Source: Trinickia fusca (GTDB lineage Bacteria > Pseudomonadota > Gammaproteobacteria > Burkholderiales > Burkholderiaceae). Taken from it: a DNA stretch of 64,000 nucleotides. Made by a program: the position numbers and the translations under genes. Under the pieces are notes generated by a model. It saw only the letters and a list, made by a program, of their open reading frames with translations. It searched no databases and was not told the DNA's origin. Shown one piece after another: positions 21,631 to 27,375 of this stretch. Within the stretch, counting starts at the first letter, position 1. Each line of letters begins with the position of its first letter. The stretch spans positions 124,001 through 188,000 of the forward strand of contig NZ_RBZV01000008.1 of assembly GCF_003628145.1 (NCBI RefSeq), in the 5' to 3' direction.

Positions 21631-22653
21631 CTAAGCCGGCATACCGAGCAGCGCACGCACGTCGCGCCCCGGGTTCGCATCGGCGGCATACGAGAAGTCG
21701 CCCGCATCCTGACGCTTGGCGATCTGTTGCAACAGGAAGCGATAGCGCGCGCCGGCCCCGTCGAAGCGCGAGAACAGATCGCGTCGGCCGGCGGCCTCCG
21801 CATAGCGGCCGCTTTGCGGGCCGACCATCACGTTGTCCTGCGGGCCGACGATGTATGGCGTCTTCGGCATCAGAAAGCGCAGTGGCACGGGTGCCGACGT
21901 CGAATTGATCGCGAAGTTCAGGCGGCAGCGGTCGCGCGACTCGGACACGCATGGATGAAACAGCTTCAGGTCGACGCCGGGCGTATAGCGGCCATACGCG
22001 AGCGCGACCGAGCTGCGCACGTGCACGTGAATGACGGCGCGCACATCCTGAAACCGCGACCGCACGCCACCGAACCAGCGCATGATCGGCGCGACCGTCT
22101 TGTTCTTGCAGGTGCGGATCATCGTGACGGTCTCGGACGTGTACTGCACCTCGATGCGGTCTTCGTCGGCACGCTCGTCGCCGAGCACATCGGCGTGCAG
22201 GAAATCGGCGTGCGTGAGATCGAGCAGATTCTCGATCAACAAGGCCGAGCAGCAGTCGAACCGCACCGTGCCGTGCATGTAGGGCGGCAGCCCGCCGTCG
22301 TACGGCAGATACGGCACATCGGGCACCAACGTATCGCTCGCGTGTTCGGGGTCGCCGTACCACACCCACACGTAGCCGTAGCGTTCGAGCACCGGATAGT
22401 CGTGCGAACCGTCATCGCGGATGTTTGCGCGCACGGGCCCGTCAGGACGACGCTTCGACGCGCGCAACCGCCCTTTCACGCGCCACAGGTAGCATGGTTC
22501 GGATTGGACCTGCCGTCGCGCGACGGACTCGTCGACCTCGTGCCCGTGCGCGACGGGCAGCCACGCATCGCGCAGGTCGAACCGGTTCGGGATCCACTCG
22601 CGCTCCAGATACCGCTGCGCGGTGGCGGCTTCATCGAGCTCGAGCTTAGCCAT
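21631..22653 (-). CDS. Rieske-oxygenase homologue lacking the Rieske cluster ligands
   Basis: 340 residues with the overall plan of a Rieske non-heme oxygenase alpha subunit. The N-terminal domain (about 28-110: DAWLPVAHGHE ... YGYVWVWYGD) keeps the Rieske fold signature but lacks both C-x-H and C-x2-H. The catalytic domain keeps the iron motif intact: ENLLDLTHADFLH gives bridging Asp145, His148 and His153, with Asp273 (QDNVMV) as likely third ligand. It should bind Fe(II) but cannot carry [2Fe-2S]. It overlaps the preceding gene by eight bases; that protein has the complementary half, so I infer a heteromeric oxygenase. Confidence 0.85.
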   Translation of the reverse strand: MAKLELDEAATAQRYLEREWIPNRFDLRDAWLPVAHGHEVDESVARRQVQSEPCYLWRVKGRLRASKRRPDGPVRANIRDDGSHDYPVLERYGYVWVWYGDPEHASDTLVPDVPYLPYDGGLPPYMHGTVRFDCCSALLIENLLDLTHADFLHADVLGDERADEDRIEVQYTSETVTMIRTCKNKTVAPIMRWFGGVRSRFQDVRAVIHVHVRSSVALAYGRYTPGVDLKLFHPCVSESRDRCRLNFAINSTSAPVPLRFLMPKTPYIVGPQDNVMVGPQSGRYAEAAGRRDLFSRFDGAGARYRFLLQQIAKRQDAGDFSYAADANPGRDVRALLGMPA

Positions 22654-23683
22654 CGATCGTCCCCATGTCCTTTGCCATCATTTCGCTCACCTGTGCGTCA
22701 CGGGCCGGTTCGTTCGCGCGCAGCAGCTGCCGCCAATCACGCGACGAAGCTACGTCGAGTCTTGCAAGCGCGTGCGCATCGATCTGCGCGCGCATCTCGA
22801 ACGGCCTGCGCCCCAGCTTCGCGCCAAGCCTGAAGCGGACCGCATCGAGCCCACCGGCCGTCGCCAGTACGCCGCCACGCCACAGCACGGCCGTCGTGCC
22901 ACGCGCGGCAGGTGTGATGCCGATCGCGGCCCAGAGCGCGAGTTCTTCCTCGCTCGTGTAAAGCTCGATCGTCGTCAGCGCGCCGCGCGCCATTGCGGCT
23001 ACGCTGAGCGACCACGGGTATTGCGTGACGAAGCGATGATTGCGCTTGCGCGACGCCCACACCACGCCACGCTCCATGCTGACCAATGTGCCGTGCGGCG
23101 CAGGATCGGCACTCACGTAGTTCGTGATGCGCAGCCCCGCGATGTGCATCAGCAGTTCGGGATCATCGACAAGCGCGGCCACATACTGCTCATGGGACAG
23201 GCCCACCGTCACCGATCCCGAAAAATGTTGCGAGCAGGCAGCCGGCACCGCAGCGAGACCGATCGGCTCGTCATCACCAGCAGATTGGGCGCGGATCAGC
23301 ACGAACCCGTCGCGTTCGAGCACGCTGTAGGCACGCGCCGCATAGTGCGACGGCACGCGTTCGCTGGTCGACAGATTAGGAATCGTCACGCAGATGCCCG
23401 TGATCCCGTCGTAAGTCCATCCGTGATAGCCGCATTGCAACTGCCCGTCGGAGGTAATGCGGCCCAGCGACAGCGGCGCGCGCCGATGCCGGCATCGATC
23501 CTCGAGCGCACGCACGGCACCGGTCGCATCGCGATACAGCACGACGGGCTCGCCGTCGCACATCACACCGAGCGGCACCTTGCTGCTGACCTGTTCCGAC
23601 AGCGCCACCGGCCACCAGCGCGCATCGGCGCGACGCACGAGCAGATTCGCGATCGGCTCGCACGATTCGTTCGACATGTTCAT
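22646..23683 (-). CDS. Rieske [2Fe-2S] protein with degenerate oxygenase domain
   Basis: 345 residues. The N-terminal Rieske domain is complete: Cys64-x-His66, 17 residues, Cys84-x2-His87 (CRHRRAPL ... CGYHGW). The C-terminal domain is the size of an oxygenase catalytic domain, but the iron motif is lost: where D-x2-H-x4-H is expected it reads LVDDPELLMH, without the His pair. It should transfer electrons but not activate oxygen itself. The start at 23683 has GAGGG upstream. Its stop lies inside the next gene, so the two are translationally coupled and probably made in equal amounts. No reductase is encoded nearby. Confidence 0.87.
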   Translation of the reverse strand: MNMSNESCEPIANLLVRRADARWWPVALSEQVSSKVPLGVMCDGEPVVLYRDATGAVRALEDRCRHRRAPLSLGRITSDGQLQCGYHGWTYDGITGICVTIPNLSTSERVPSHYAARAYSVLERDGFVLIRAQSAGDDEPIGLAAVPAACSQHFSGSVTVGLSHEQYVAALVDDPELLMHIAGLRITNYVSADPAPHGTLVSMERGVVWASRKRNHRFVTQYPWSLSVAAMARGALTTIELYTSEEELALWAAIGITPAARGTTAVLWRGGVLATAGGLDAVRFRLGAKLGRRPFEMRAQIDAHALARLDVASSRDWRQLLRANEPARDAQVSEMMAKDMGTIDG

Positions 23684-23721: not shown

Positions 23722-24966
23722 CTAGCTGGCGGTCACCGCATGACGCACGTCGCGCCGTTCCTCCCGCGTCCACTTGTGCGCCCAGCGTGCGCTGAGCGCG
23801 GTCATCGCGAGTGTCGCGATGAGCAGCACCGTATAGAGCGATGCCGGGATCAAGTGCAGCTGCAAACCGATGCTGAGCACGAGCAACTCGACCGTGCCGC
23901 GGCTGTTCATCAATGCCGCGACCATGCGCGCTTCTTCCGGCTCGATACGGCACAGCCGCGCGGCTGCGTAGCACCCGCCGAACTTGCCGGCCACGCCGCC
24001 CACGAGGAATAGCAGCAACCATCCCCACAGCGTGGGCGAGTGCAAAGCGGAAATCGAAGCTTGAATGCCGACGCTGACGAAGAACAGCGGCGTCAGCACG
24101 AGTTCGGCCAGGCCCGCGAAACGCCGACTCCACAACTGCCGCAGATCGCGCCGCGCCGACATGTTCACGGCTGCGATCAACGCACCGAATGCGCTGTGGA
24201 AACCGAGCGTCGTCGCCACCCATGAGGACAGCAGCAGATAGCAAAGTGCGCAGATCAGGAGCGCCGAGCTGCTGCCCGAACGACGCACGGCATCGAGCAG
24301 CCGGTGCACGGCAAACCGTACGACGGTGATCGAAACCGCAAAGAACACGGCAAGCAGCAGCAGGTTGTGCAACATCGAGCTTGGCGAGAAGCCGGATGTC
24401 GCAATGGCGCCGACGCTCGCCAGCATGATCCAGCCCACGGCATCGGTCACCGTCGCCGCGAGAAGCGACAACTTGGCACTGGCACGATGCGCGATGCCGG
24501 CCTCCTCGATGATGCGGGCCATGACGGGCAAGGCCGACACCGACAGGGCGATCCCGCAAAAAAGGATGCTCGCGAGGCGCGGCACGCGCGGTGCAAAAGC
24601 CGTATCGGCCAGTGCCGCGATCGCGCAACCGATTGCGAACGGGCAGATCATGCCAAGCGCCGCGATCAGAAACGGCGCAAACGATGCCGACCGTGTCCTC
24701 GGCATATCGCCGACGATGTGGGCGCCCGTCTGGAACATGAGAAAGACGAGACCGAGCTCGCCCAGATGCGAAACGATCGACGTCGATGCGGGGCTGAACA
24801 GCGCCTGATAGCCGGCACCGCCGATGGCTCCCAGCATCGACGGACCCAGCAGCAAGCCGGCCAGCAGTTCGCCGATGACCTTGCCTTGACCGAGGCGGTG
24901 CGCGAACGCGCCGCAGACGGACGTCGCGACGATGACGATACACAGCTGAAGCATCCAGTTGCTCAT
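23722..24966 (-). CDS. CPA2-type cation/proton antiporter
   Basis: 414 residues with about 12 membrane segments. It follows the Kef/GerN/NapA (CPA2) pattern: GQGKVIGELLAGLLLGP near the start, ATVTDAVGW with the Asp of the ion-binding unwound region, and NSRGTVELL near the end. There is no C-terminal regulatory (TrkA) domain. Embedded in the halogenase cluster, it may export the product or balance pH/ions needed for tolerance; antiporter-like genes of this family occur in several biosynthetic clusters. It lies 38 bases before the Rieske gene and 108 bases after the halogenase. Confidence 0.9.
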   Translation of the reverse strand: MSNWMLQLCIVIVATSVCGAFAHRLGQGKVIGELLAGLLLGPSMLGAIGGAGYQALFSPASTSIVSHLGELGLVFLMFQTGAHIVGDMPRTRSASFAPFLIAALGMICPFAIGCAIAALADTAFAPRVPRLASILFCGIALSVSALPVMARIIEEAGIAHRASAKLSLLAATVTDAVGWIMLASVGAIATSGFSPSSMLHNLLLLAVFFAVSITVVRFAVHRLLDAVRRSGSSSALLICALCYLLLSSWVATTLGFHSAFGALIAAVNMSARRDLRQLWSRRFAGLAELVLTPLFFVSVGIQASISALHSPTLWGWLLLFLVGGVAGKFGGCYAAARLCRIEPEEARMVAALMNSRGTVELLVLSIGLQLHLIPASLYTVLLIATLAMTALSARWAHKWTREERRDVRHAVTAS

Positions 24967-25074: not shown

Positions 25075-26520
25075 TCAGACCGTGACGGCCACGCGGCGCA
25101 GTCCGAGCCGCGGCTTCGTCGACACGTACAGCCCTTCGAGCGCCATGTCTTCCGACAAGCAAGGCAAGCCTTCGATGGCGTCGAAGAAGCGCGCGTTGTC
25201 TTCGGCTTCCTTCGATCCAATCTTGTCGCCGAGCTGCGACTTGTCCTTGCGCATCGACAGGTTCTCGTCGACGCGACGCGCCATCTCGCCCATCAGGTGG
25301 GAAGTGACCTGCTCGACATCGGCGATGTCCTCGAGGCCCGAAACCAGATTCAGGAATGCGCGATGGAGGTCGCCGGCCTTGAGCGTGTAGTGACTGAGCT
25401 CGTCGGCCTTGCTCCAGTAGCCGAGCTTGCCGTGCGCTTCGTAGAACGTCTGCACGAAGATCACGAACCGCACATAGGCCTGACGGTAGCTGCTTTCGTA
25501 GTAGGCGCACGCCTCTTCTTCCGTCACCTCTCCGCGCAAGATGCTCGCGATCGATGCGGCCGACAGCATGCCGCTGTACATGGCCAAGTGCACGCCCGTC
25601 GAGAGCAGCGGATCGAGGAAGCAGGCCGAGTCGCCGGCAAGGAAGAAGCCCTTGCCCTGGAACGCTTCGCTCGCATACGAGTAGTCCTGTTCCGTCTTGA
25701 TCGGCGAAACCAATTCCGCGCCTTTCACGAGATCCGTCATCAGCGGGCTCATCGCCAGCGCGTTCTCGTAGAGCTGCTCCAGCGAATTGTTGCGGCGCGC
25801 TTGCGTAAACGCATCGCGGTGCTGGACCAAGCCGACGCTGACCGTGCCGTCGGAAAGCGGGATACCCCACCACCAGCCGTCGGGAACCGAGGCCACGAGA
25901 ATCGCCCCTTCGGCGCAATCCTTGGGCCAGTTCGCGTTCTTCCAATAGCCCCACGCGGCGATGTTGCGGAAGATGTCGTGGAACTTGCGGTTCTCGAGGT
26001 AGCCCGTTGCCATGACACCGTTGCGGCCCGACGCATCGACGAGGTAGTCGAACTCGATCGTCTGCAGCGACTCGCTGCCCTTCACACTGCACACGGCACG
26101 GCGCGGGCGGCCGTCTTCGAATTGCAGCTCGCGCACGGTCACGCCCTCGTGCACCTTCGCGCCCATCGTGCGCGCATGACTCAGCAGCAGATAATCGAAA
26201 TCTTCACGGCGCACTTGATAGCTGTAGCGATACGATCCGCCCAGCTCGCCGAAGTCGAGCGTCCACGTCTCGCCCTTCCAGTTGAAGTACGCACCTGGCT
26301 TGCGTTGGAAGCCATAGCTGTCGAACAGTTTGCGCGCGCCCATGAGACCGACGATCTCCAGGCACGACGGCAGCAGCGACTCGCCTATGTGATAGCGCGG
26401 AAACACTTCGCGATCGAGAACGGTGACTTCGACGCCCTCACGTGCCAGAAAACCGGCCGTGGTAGCGCCTGCGGGCCCGCCGCCGATGACGAGAACCTTC
26501 GTGTAACGCGGTAAAGACAT
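25075..26520 (-). CDS. Flavin-dependent halogenase
   Basis: 481 residues. FAD-binding GGGPAG at 13-18, the RYHIGESLLP segment and a later GDSACFLDPLLSTG mark the PHBH-fold flavoprotein family. The halogenase marker W-x-W-x-I-P is present as WWWGIP near 213-218. Lys74 in QRKPGA falls where halogenases carry the Lys that holds hypohalous acid. Size and look are closer to PltA/CmlS-type enzymes than to the ~530-residue tryptophan halogenases, so a phenolic, pyrrolic or carrier-bound substrate is possible. The start has AGGAGG. It needs reduced flavin from a reductase not encoded here. Confidence 0.9.
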   Translation of the reverse strand: MSLPRYTKVLVIGGGPAGATTAGFLAREGVEVTVLDREVFPRYHIGESLLPSCLEIVGLMGARKLFDSYGFQRKPGAYFNWKGETWTLDFGELGGSYRYSYQVRREDFDYLLLSHARTMGAKVHEGVTVRELQFEDGRPRRAVCSVKGSESLQTIEFDYLVDASGRNGVMATGYLENRKFHDIFRNIAAWGYWKNANWPKDCAEGAILVASVPDGWWWGIPLSDGTVSVGLVQHRDAFTQARRNNSLEQLYENALAMSPLMTDLVKGAELVSPIKTEQDYSYASEAFQGKGFFLAGDSACFLDPLLSTGVHLAMYSGMLSAASIASILRGEVTEEEACAYYESSYRQAYVRFVIFVQTFYEAHGKLGYWSKADELSHYTLKAGDLHRAFLNLVSGLEDIADVEQVTSHLMGEMARRVDENLSMRKDKSQLGDKIGSKEAEDNARFFDAIEGLPCLSEDMALEGLYVSTKPRLGLRRVAVTV

Positions 26521-26661: not shown

Positions 26662-27375
26662 TTACGCGGCTGCCTGGAACTCGCCCAGTGCGATCTTGTT
26701 GATCTCGTACTTGTGATCGAGGAATTCTCGGAAGCTCGCGAAGTGGTCGTCGACGATGCTCACCGCCTCCATGCGCTTCTCGTCGGAAAGGTGCTGATCG
26801 AGGAATACCGACGAGTCGATCGAGTTGTCGACTTCGCTGTCGATGTGCTCGGCGCCGAGGTAGCGCAGGGTGTTGCCGGTGTCGGCCTCGTACATCGCAG
26901 CGAGGCGGCGCGAGGTCGTAAAGAACACCTTCGACGTGGCTTCGCCGGCCTCCATCGACGCCATCTTCAACAGCGGGCACTCGCCACAACGGCGTGCACG
27001 CGAAATCAGCGAATACATGTACTTGCGCACCGTGAAACCGAGGTCGTCCCAGATGACACGGATGGCGCTCTCGCAGTCGTGAGCCTTGTCGTTGACGCCC
27101 AGGATCTTGATATCCGAGACCATCATGCCCCAGTGTTCCGCATCCACATTGACGTGCGCATTTATGGCGCGCTCCAATTGATCACCAGGATTTTCGTAGT
27201 GGTAGTACATCTTGTTAATATCGCGGAACGTCATGGCGAGGTGAATCAGCAGCGGCGACCAAATGCGCATCAGTTCTTTGATCTGCGGCACGGAAATGTC
27301 TTCGAGCTGCGCAAATACCGGGTGACTCAAAAGAGCAGCTTTTTCGACACGAATGCGATCGAAGATCTGTTTCAT
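26662..27375 (-). CDS. Heme-oxygenase-like di-iron oxidase/oxygenase (HDO)
   Basis: 237 residues, almost all helical. It fits the iron-containing redox enzyme/HDO superfamily: the first ligand helix reads INAHVNVDAEHW (His74, Asp78, His81). A second helix has MEAGEATSKVFF (Glu142/145). A third has RYLGAEHIDSEVDN (His177, Glu181). A Cys pair (RRCGEC) is also present. Known HDO enzymes cleave or oxidise amino or fatty acids: UndA, BesC, SznF, CADD, and AetD, which turns halogenated tryptophan into a nitrile. It is probably the first gene of the cluster, with the long AT-rich region upstream. The chemistry here is unknown. Confidence 0.75.
   Translation of the reverse strand: MKQIFDRIRVEKAALLSHPVFAQLEDISVPQIKELMRIWSPLLIHLAMTFRDINKMYYHYENPGDQLERAINAHVNVDAEHWGMMVSDIKILGVNDKAHDCESAIRVIWDDLGFTVRKYMYSLISRARRCGECPLLKMASMEAGEATSKVFFTTSRRLAAMYEADTGNTLRYLGAEHIDSEVDNSIDSSVFLDQHLSDEKRMEAVSIVDDHFASFREFLDHKYEINKIALGEFQAAA

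Follow-up and report, generated by a model that had tools for sequence, protein, structure and literature searches.

A Conserved Bacterial Pair of Reciprocally Reduced Rieske Oxygenase Paralogues in Trinickia fusca, Very Probably Subunits of One Heteromeric Enzyme

Introduction

A paper of 2013 reportedly placed the Rieske centre of the chlorophyllide a oxygenase of Micromonas pusilla (MpCAO) on one chain and the iron on the other. Another study describes MpCAO as a Rieske oxygenase in two polypeptide chains, which had earlier been proposed to be a heterodimer and is active with the reductase VanB; its authors consider a trimer of dimers or a similar assembly likely for this two-chain enzyme (PMC9615114). 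A second system is the 7-methylxanthine N7-demethylase NdmCDE, in which the non-haem iron oxygenase NdmC has no Rieske cluster of its own, the cluster being located on another polypeptide (PMC4408171). The reductase NdmD carries the extra Rieske cluster of NdmCDE as a fusion, and the GST-like protein NdmE is also required. Precedents for divided centres therefore exist (two-chain Micromonas CAO and NdmCDE). By comparison, dicamba monooxygenase (DdmC) and guaiacol demethylase (GdmA) have both centres in every chain.

A term search of a 2025 review found neither NdmC nor Micromonas, and its table of structures contains no enzyme divided in this way (PMC12445004). A literature search, in which subscription journals were little covered, returned no description of a bacterial pair of this kind. 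Here, we analysed a stretch of 64,000 nucleotides from Trinickia fusca (hereafter the window), in which two adjacent genes, called UP and DN, have the following features.

22646..23683, minus strand: UP, predicted Rieske-bearing subunit, 345 aa (Pfam Rieske 4.5e-22, no VanA_C)
21631..22653, minus strand: DN, predicted mononuclear-iron subunit, 340 aa (Pfam VanA_C 7.7e-32, no Rieske)
22646..22653, minus strand: overlap of the UP stop and the DN start, 8 bases (ORF positions)
23423..23494, minus strand: Cys64, His66, Cys84 and His87 of UP, Rieske ligands (codons checked; 25/25 rows)
22709..23236, minus strand: degenerate catalytic domain of UP, residues ~150-325 (lacks the pieces that hold the second His and the ligand Asp)
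23165-23167, minus strand: Asp173 of UP, retained at the bridging-Asp position (25/25 rows)
22339..22578, minus strand: Rieske-domain remnant of DN, residues ~26-105 (36-residue CxH...CxxH block missing in DN rows)
22195..22221, minus strand: Asp145 (bridging position), His148 and His153 of DN (27/27 rows; codons checked)
21835..21837, minus strand: Asp273 of DN, facial-triad carboxylate (27/27 rows)

Unlike the chains of DdmC and GdmA, UP and DN have one centre each. As in NdmCDE, the iron and the Rieske cluster would lie on different polypeptides; however, UP differs from NdmD in that Pfam finds only a Rieske domain in it, with no flavin or NAD domain, and in that its model has a whole oxygenase-like second domain. 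The original prediction had named NdmC/NdmD as the precedent, which is a fair choice, but Micromonas CAO in its two polypeptide chains is closer. The likeness to MpCAO is drawn from the description of that enzyme, which is eukaryotic and acts on chlorophyllide, whereas UP and DN are bacterial, are encoded by adjacent genes and are set among halogenase-like or catabolic-looking genes. What appears to be new is that the reciprocally degenerate paralogues form a bacterial pair, which occurs in three proteobacterial classes.

Materials and Methods

Pfam domain calls on UP and DN were made at E 0.001. The alignment contained 25 UP rows, 27 DN rows and 36 complete oxygenases. The complete oxygenases were picked by patterns requiring both motifs and were used only as a frame, so that the presence of both motifs in 36/36 of them reflects selection and is no test. 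Because the pattern required D..H....H, it excluded six L001-type rows; L001 and L014 read DMNHQFLH. The 25 UP/DN pairs were reduced to 20 by removing pairs at least 90% identical in both proteins; the pair of L112 is identical to that of L110. Two DN rows have no UP, namely L043, whose contig starts within DN, and the orphan L089; contig ends also cut the DN of L044 and the UP of L045.

Species genomes were scanned with DN using one genome per species (genome_contigs, 84,980 species), and such a single-protein query reaches close relatives only. Loci L047-L071 match DN only in part, and some of them were used as complete-oxygenase rows. Copies were left out for the L032 locus (L007, L078, L094), for L034 (its near copy L042), for the window (L003, L006, L077, L095) and for the L082-L089 loci (L072-L076, L079-L081, L090-L093, L096-L098). 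In the profile searches, at most five candidates were scored per genome. One 443-residue ORF of L071 was removed before the tree was built. For the AlphaFold single-chain models of UP and DN, A1 (14 rows) and A2 (15 rows) served as the input alignments.

Results and Discussion

Only a Rieske domain was found in UP and only VanA_C in DN, and the ORF coordinates bear out the overlap of eight bases noticed originally. UP had been read as keeping all four Rieske ligands, and its codons agree; Cys/His/Cys/His is kept in all of its aligned relatives, and the motif CxH...CxxH is present in 25/25 UP rows and missing from 27/27 DN rows. The columns of the second His and the ligand Asp (carboxylate) are gaps in every UP row (25/25), while the column of the first iron His is occupied by E (13), H (4), S (4), G (2), Q (1) or D (1). 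DN had been described as lacking the four Rieske ligands yet keeping Asp145, His148, His153 and Asp273, which again matches both the codons and the 27 DN relatives: Asp/His/His/Asp is kept in 27/27 rows, and the four Rieske ligand columns are gaps throughout (27/27). The 2-His-1-carboxylate set is accordingly complete in 27/27 DN rows and incomplete in 25/25 UP rows. Compared with the complete oxygenases, DN has a cluster-binding block of 36 columns deleted, and UP has pieces of 6, 8 and 15 columns deleted, the first holding the second His and the last the ligand Asp; the centre losses of UP and DN are deletions. By sequence, one full set of both centres is shared across the two partner chains in 25/25 pairs.

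The stretch LVDDPELLMH of UP had been taken as a lost iron motif. The loss of the site stands, but the aspartate aligned to the bridging Asp (Asp173) is kept, and Asp173, Trp209 and Trp268 are each invariant (25/25). The invariance of Asp173 counts against the heteromeric enzyme proposed below, since a dead iron site has no obvious need for a bridging Asp. Whether the missing ligands are supplied elsewhere in each chain was addressed by scanning all alignment columns, in which just one column has Cys in at least half of the DN rows (16/27), and just the two Rieske His columns have His in at least half of the UP rows; no substitute site is visible in the aligned sequences. The search for conserved neighbouring pairs with reciprocal motif loss yielded 25 pairs, 20 of them non-redundant, a number that rules out chance or sequencing error behind the reciprocal loss, which was found in 25/25 pairs; no homologous pair with both centres in each protein was found.

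The AlphaFold model of UP has two domains, with a pLDDT of 82.3 and a pTM of 0.79; that of DN has a pLDDT of 78.0 (against 52-59 for its other four models) and a pTM of 0.83, with pLDDT falling below 50 at residues 148-158, i.e., at the iron ligands. Foldseek ranks DdmC first for both proteins, aligning it with DN over 348 columns (3gke, TM 0.70, rmsd 4.4) and with UP over 359 columns (3gb4, TM 0.58, rmsd 8.8), the latter rmsd across the whole chain making the placement of the two domains of UP uncertain. GdmA ranks 8 for DN and 17 for UP, where it has the highest TM among the UP matches listed, and DdmC and GdmA are also among the sequence matches of UP and DN. Both chains are thus predicted to adopt the two-domain fold of a Rieske oxygenase alpha subunit, that of DN without the cluster block. 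The idea of a "split" oxygenase therefore holds for the reciprocal loss of centres and fails for the genes: a literal split gene is ruled out by the models and fold matches, in which UP and DN are both full length with two domains, and since each is a whole two-domain paralogue, the word is figurative.

The DN scan of the 84,980 species genomes gave 40 loci, of which 15 (L032-L046) match most of the length of DN; a UP relative lies just upstream in 14 of these 15, and the contig of the remaining one (L043) begins inside DN. Of all DN loci used, 25/27 have UP immediately upstream in the same orientation, L043 and L089 being the exceptions. Among 398 genomes of the family, the DN profile detected 9 genomes (own genome included) and 10 loci at E <=1e-40, and the UP profile detected the same nine at <=1.4e-105. 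For independent draws, this nine-of-nine co-occurrence would have a chance of ~1.6e-18, which is a rough guide only, because the nine carriers span just 4 genera. The UP profile also matched genome G245 (144 bits, 2.1e-41); this protein was rejected as UP, because it has both the Rieske motif and DGAHAVFTH and is an ordinary oxygenase. At E 1e-20, DN was found in the own genome only, both in the class sample (1/369) and in the phylum sample (1/398).

Among 72,556 plasmid records, DN was covered over at least 80% in four, from Massilia putida, Croceicoccus marinus (two records) and Novosphingobium resinovorum, and UP adjoins DN in all four. These records are also the best plasmid matches of UP (37.6-38.9% identity); UP was covered over at least 80% in five records, the fifth, at 28% identity, being outside the four with DN. 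The genes are labelled 'Rieske protein' and 'oxygenase' or 'dioxygenase subunit alpha' in the plasmid records, and such separate names mask that UP and DN probably constitute one enzyme. In viral_contigs, 37 stretches matched the DN alignment, with no relative among them. Overall, the pair appears to be rare and yet distributed across beta-, gamma- and alphaproteobacteria. This distribution is a minimum, given the limit of five candidates per genome and the close-relative reach of the species scan.

Three Rieske oxygenase ORFs are clustered at several actinobacterial loci (L054, L062, L065, L068, and L071). These runs were considered as a parallel to UP/DN and rejected, as every listed plus-strand ORF has both motifs.

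Upstream of UP in the direction of transcription, the window contains three further genes on the same strand.

23722..24966, minus strand: Na+/H+ exchanger family protein (Pfam Na_H_Exchanger 1.5e-47)
25075..26520, minus strand: flavin-dependent halogenase-like protein (Pfam Trp_halogenase 4.1e-37)
26662..27375, minus strand: AetD-like haem-oxygenase-like diiron protein (phmmer vs PDB AetD 2.3e-16)

The best NCBIfam match of the halogenase-like protein is the CmlS halogenase model, at 269.9 bits, under its cut-off of 900, and the AetD-like protein has no match in Pfam or NCBIfam. A unit of five genes, in the order AetD-like diiron protein, flavin halogenase-like protein, Na+/H+ exchanger, UP and DN, is common to the window, Trinickia dabaoshanensis (L032) and two further genomes of the family (L087, L088). 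In the AetD-like protein, a relative of a nitrile synthase, the window copy deviates at the last position of the HX3EX2H ligand motif, which is kept in L104-L107. Directly after DN, T. dabaoshanensis has a tryptophan halogenase, another halogenase-like ORF and a Rieske oxygenase (L032:9093-14682). We take this segment to resemble a pyrrolnitrin cluster; its Rieske oxygenase groups with PrnD-like rows.

Outside the five-gene unit, most of the neighbours examined are of catabolic types: enoyl-CoA hydratase, SDR, zinc dehydrogenase, MMPL and YCF48-like proteins in Massilia; CoA ligase, P450 and amine oxidase-like proteins in Pseudomaricurvus; acyl-CoA dehydrogenase and amidohydrolase at L083; and sulphotransferase, a 2Fe-2S protein and F420 genes in sphingomonads. 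Because the neighbours vary in this way, the substrate of UP/DN probably differs between lineages. As to the redox partner, the 12 Fer2 matches of the genome are all outside the window, with no Fer2-type reductase near the pair. A gene annotated as 2Fe-2S cluster-binding lies upstream of two alphaproteobacterial pairs on large plasmids (L109:6276-6593 and L110:5376-5693) and is a candidate redox partner.

That last gene also fits a different division of labour, in which DN would be a self-standing iron oxygenase fed by a separate ferredoxin or Rieske-bearing reductase, and UP a soluble ferredoxin-like carrier or regulator without a Rieske-type interface. NdmC uses an extra Rieske cluster located on the reductase NdmD (PMC4408171), and the orphan DN of L089 points the same way. 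However, the model of UP includes a whole second domain, which would be needless for a mere carrier, Pfam detects no reductase domain in UP, UP adjoins DN at nearly all DN loci, and the two proteins co-diverge, so we consider UP as a carrier unlikely. The orphan (L089:8828-9859) lies near regulator-like ORFs in genome G366, which has another, paired DN; it may borrow UP from that other locus. This orphan counts against the heteromeric enzyme, although G366 does encode UP elsewhere.

In a quick tree of 80 rows, which carried a long-branch warning, UP formed one clade (SH-aLRT 99) and DN another (SH-aLRT 100), and UP and DN together as one clade were neither supported nor rejected (p-AU 0.40). 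UP and DN diverge in step: over 21 pairs, the UP and DN distances correlate with r 0.934, a value as high being reached in 0/9999 permutations (best permuted 0.68), in a comparison that ignores shared species history. In the same 21 pairs, the mean pairwise identity of UP is 55% in the Rieske part (residues 22-132) and 38% in the catalytic part (residues 133-325), while that of DN is 56% in the Rieske remnant (residues 22-105) and 59% in the catalytic part. The Rieske remnant of DN is still constrained, as a scaffold would be, and the catalytic domain of UP is less constrained. The faster change of this domain is what one would expect if a duplicated oxygenase were decaying, with one or both copies being lost, but that explanation is barely credible, as none of the 25 UP and 27 DN rows has lost the remaining ligands, at pairwise identities down to 25% (UP) and 39% (DN) in the 21 pairs, and the conservation spans beta-, gamma- and alphaproteobacteria.

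The reciprocal loss, the full-length predicted folds, the co-occurrence and the co-divergence form the basis of our preferred explanation, namely that UP and DN very probably act together as a single heteromeric Rieske oxygenase, the iron of DN receiving its electrons from UP. Both would belong, as full-length and reciprocally reduced paralogues, to the dicamba/guaiacol demethylase (VanA-like) type. From this basis we infer a UP-DN complex, its metal binding and the direction of its electron flow: UP would carry the [2Fe-2S] cluster, take electrons from a reductase encoded elsewhere and pack on DN through the usual head-to-tail Rieske interface; electrons would then go from UP via Asp145 of DN to the iron that His148, His153 and Asp273 of DN would bind, and this iron would activate O2 on the substrate. 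The dead domain of each subunit may be retained as a scaffold forming the other interface. In known oxygenases, the cluster is ~12 A from the iron of the neighbouring chain, compared with 45 A within the chain, according to the 2025 review (PMC12445004). With one centre per chain, UP would be donor only and DN acceptor only. Since two chains cannot alternate around a ring of three, at most one productive UP-to-DN contact would fit into a classical UP/DN trimer; either there is one live site per trimer, or the assembly differs from a trimer.

Separate homotrimers of UP and DN, stacked in the manner of NdmA/NdmB with electrons crossing between the trimers, are an arrangement that we regard as very improbable. 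In stacked trimers, electron transfer remains inside one trimer, whereas a DN trimer would have no cluster and a UP trimer no iron. The point in its favour is that alpha3-alpha'3 hexamers are listed for NdmA/NdmB in the 2025 review (PMC12445004).

Conclusions

Taken more broadly, the heteromeric reading of UP and DN points to what is probably a class of bacterial Rieske oxygenases that are obligately heteromeric. Its members, some of them plasmid-borne, would be spread across beta-, gamma- and alphaproteobacteria, have arisen with reciprocal deletions of the cluster-binding block and the iron site, pass electrons one way from UP to DN, and break the usual threefold equivalence of sites. In ordinary Rieske oxygenases, each chain is both donor and acceptor, and the inter-subunit path can be cut only by mutation, with all sites changed together. 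If UP and DN do form one enzyme with its centres on separate chains, donor and acceptor could be purified, reduced and titrated independently of each other, and the number and timing of electrons, as well as cross-talk between sites, would become directly testable. Such an enzyme would also pose the puzzle of how two unlike chains are fitted into an assembly that is usually threefold-symmetric.
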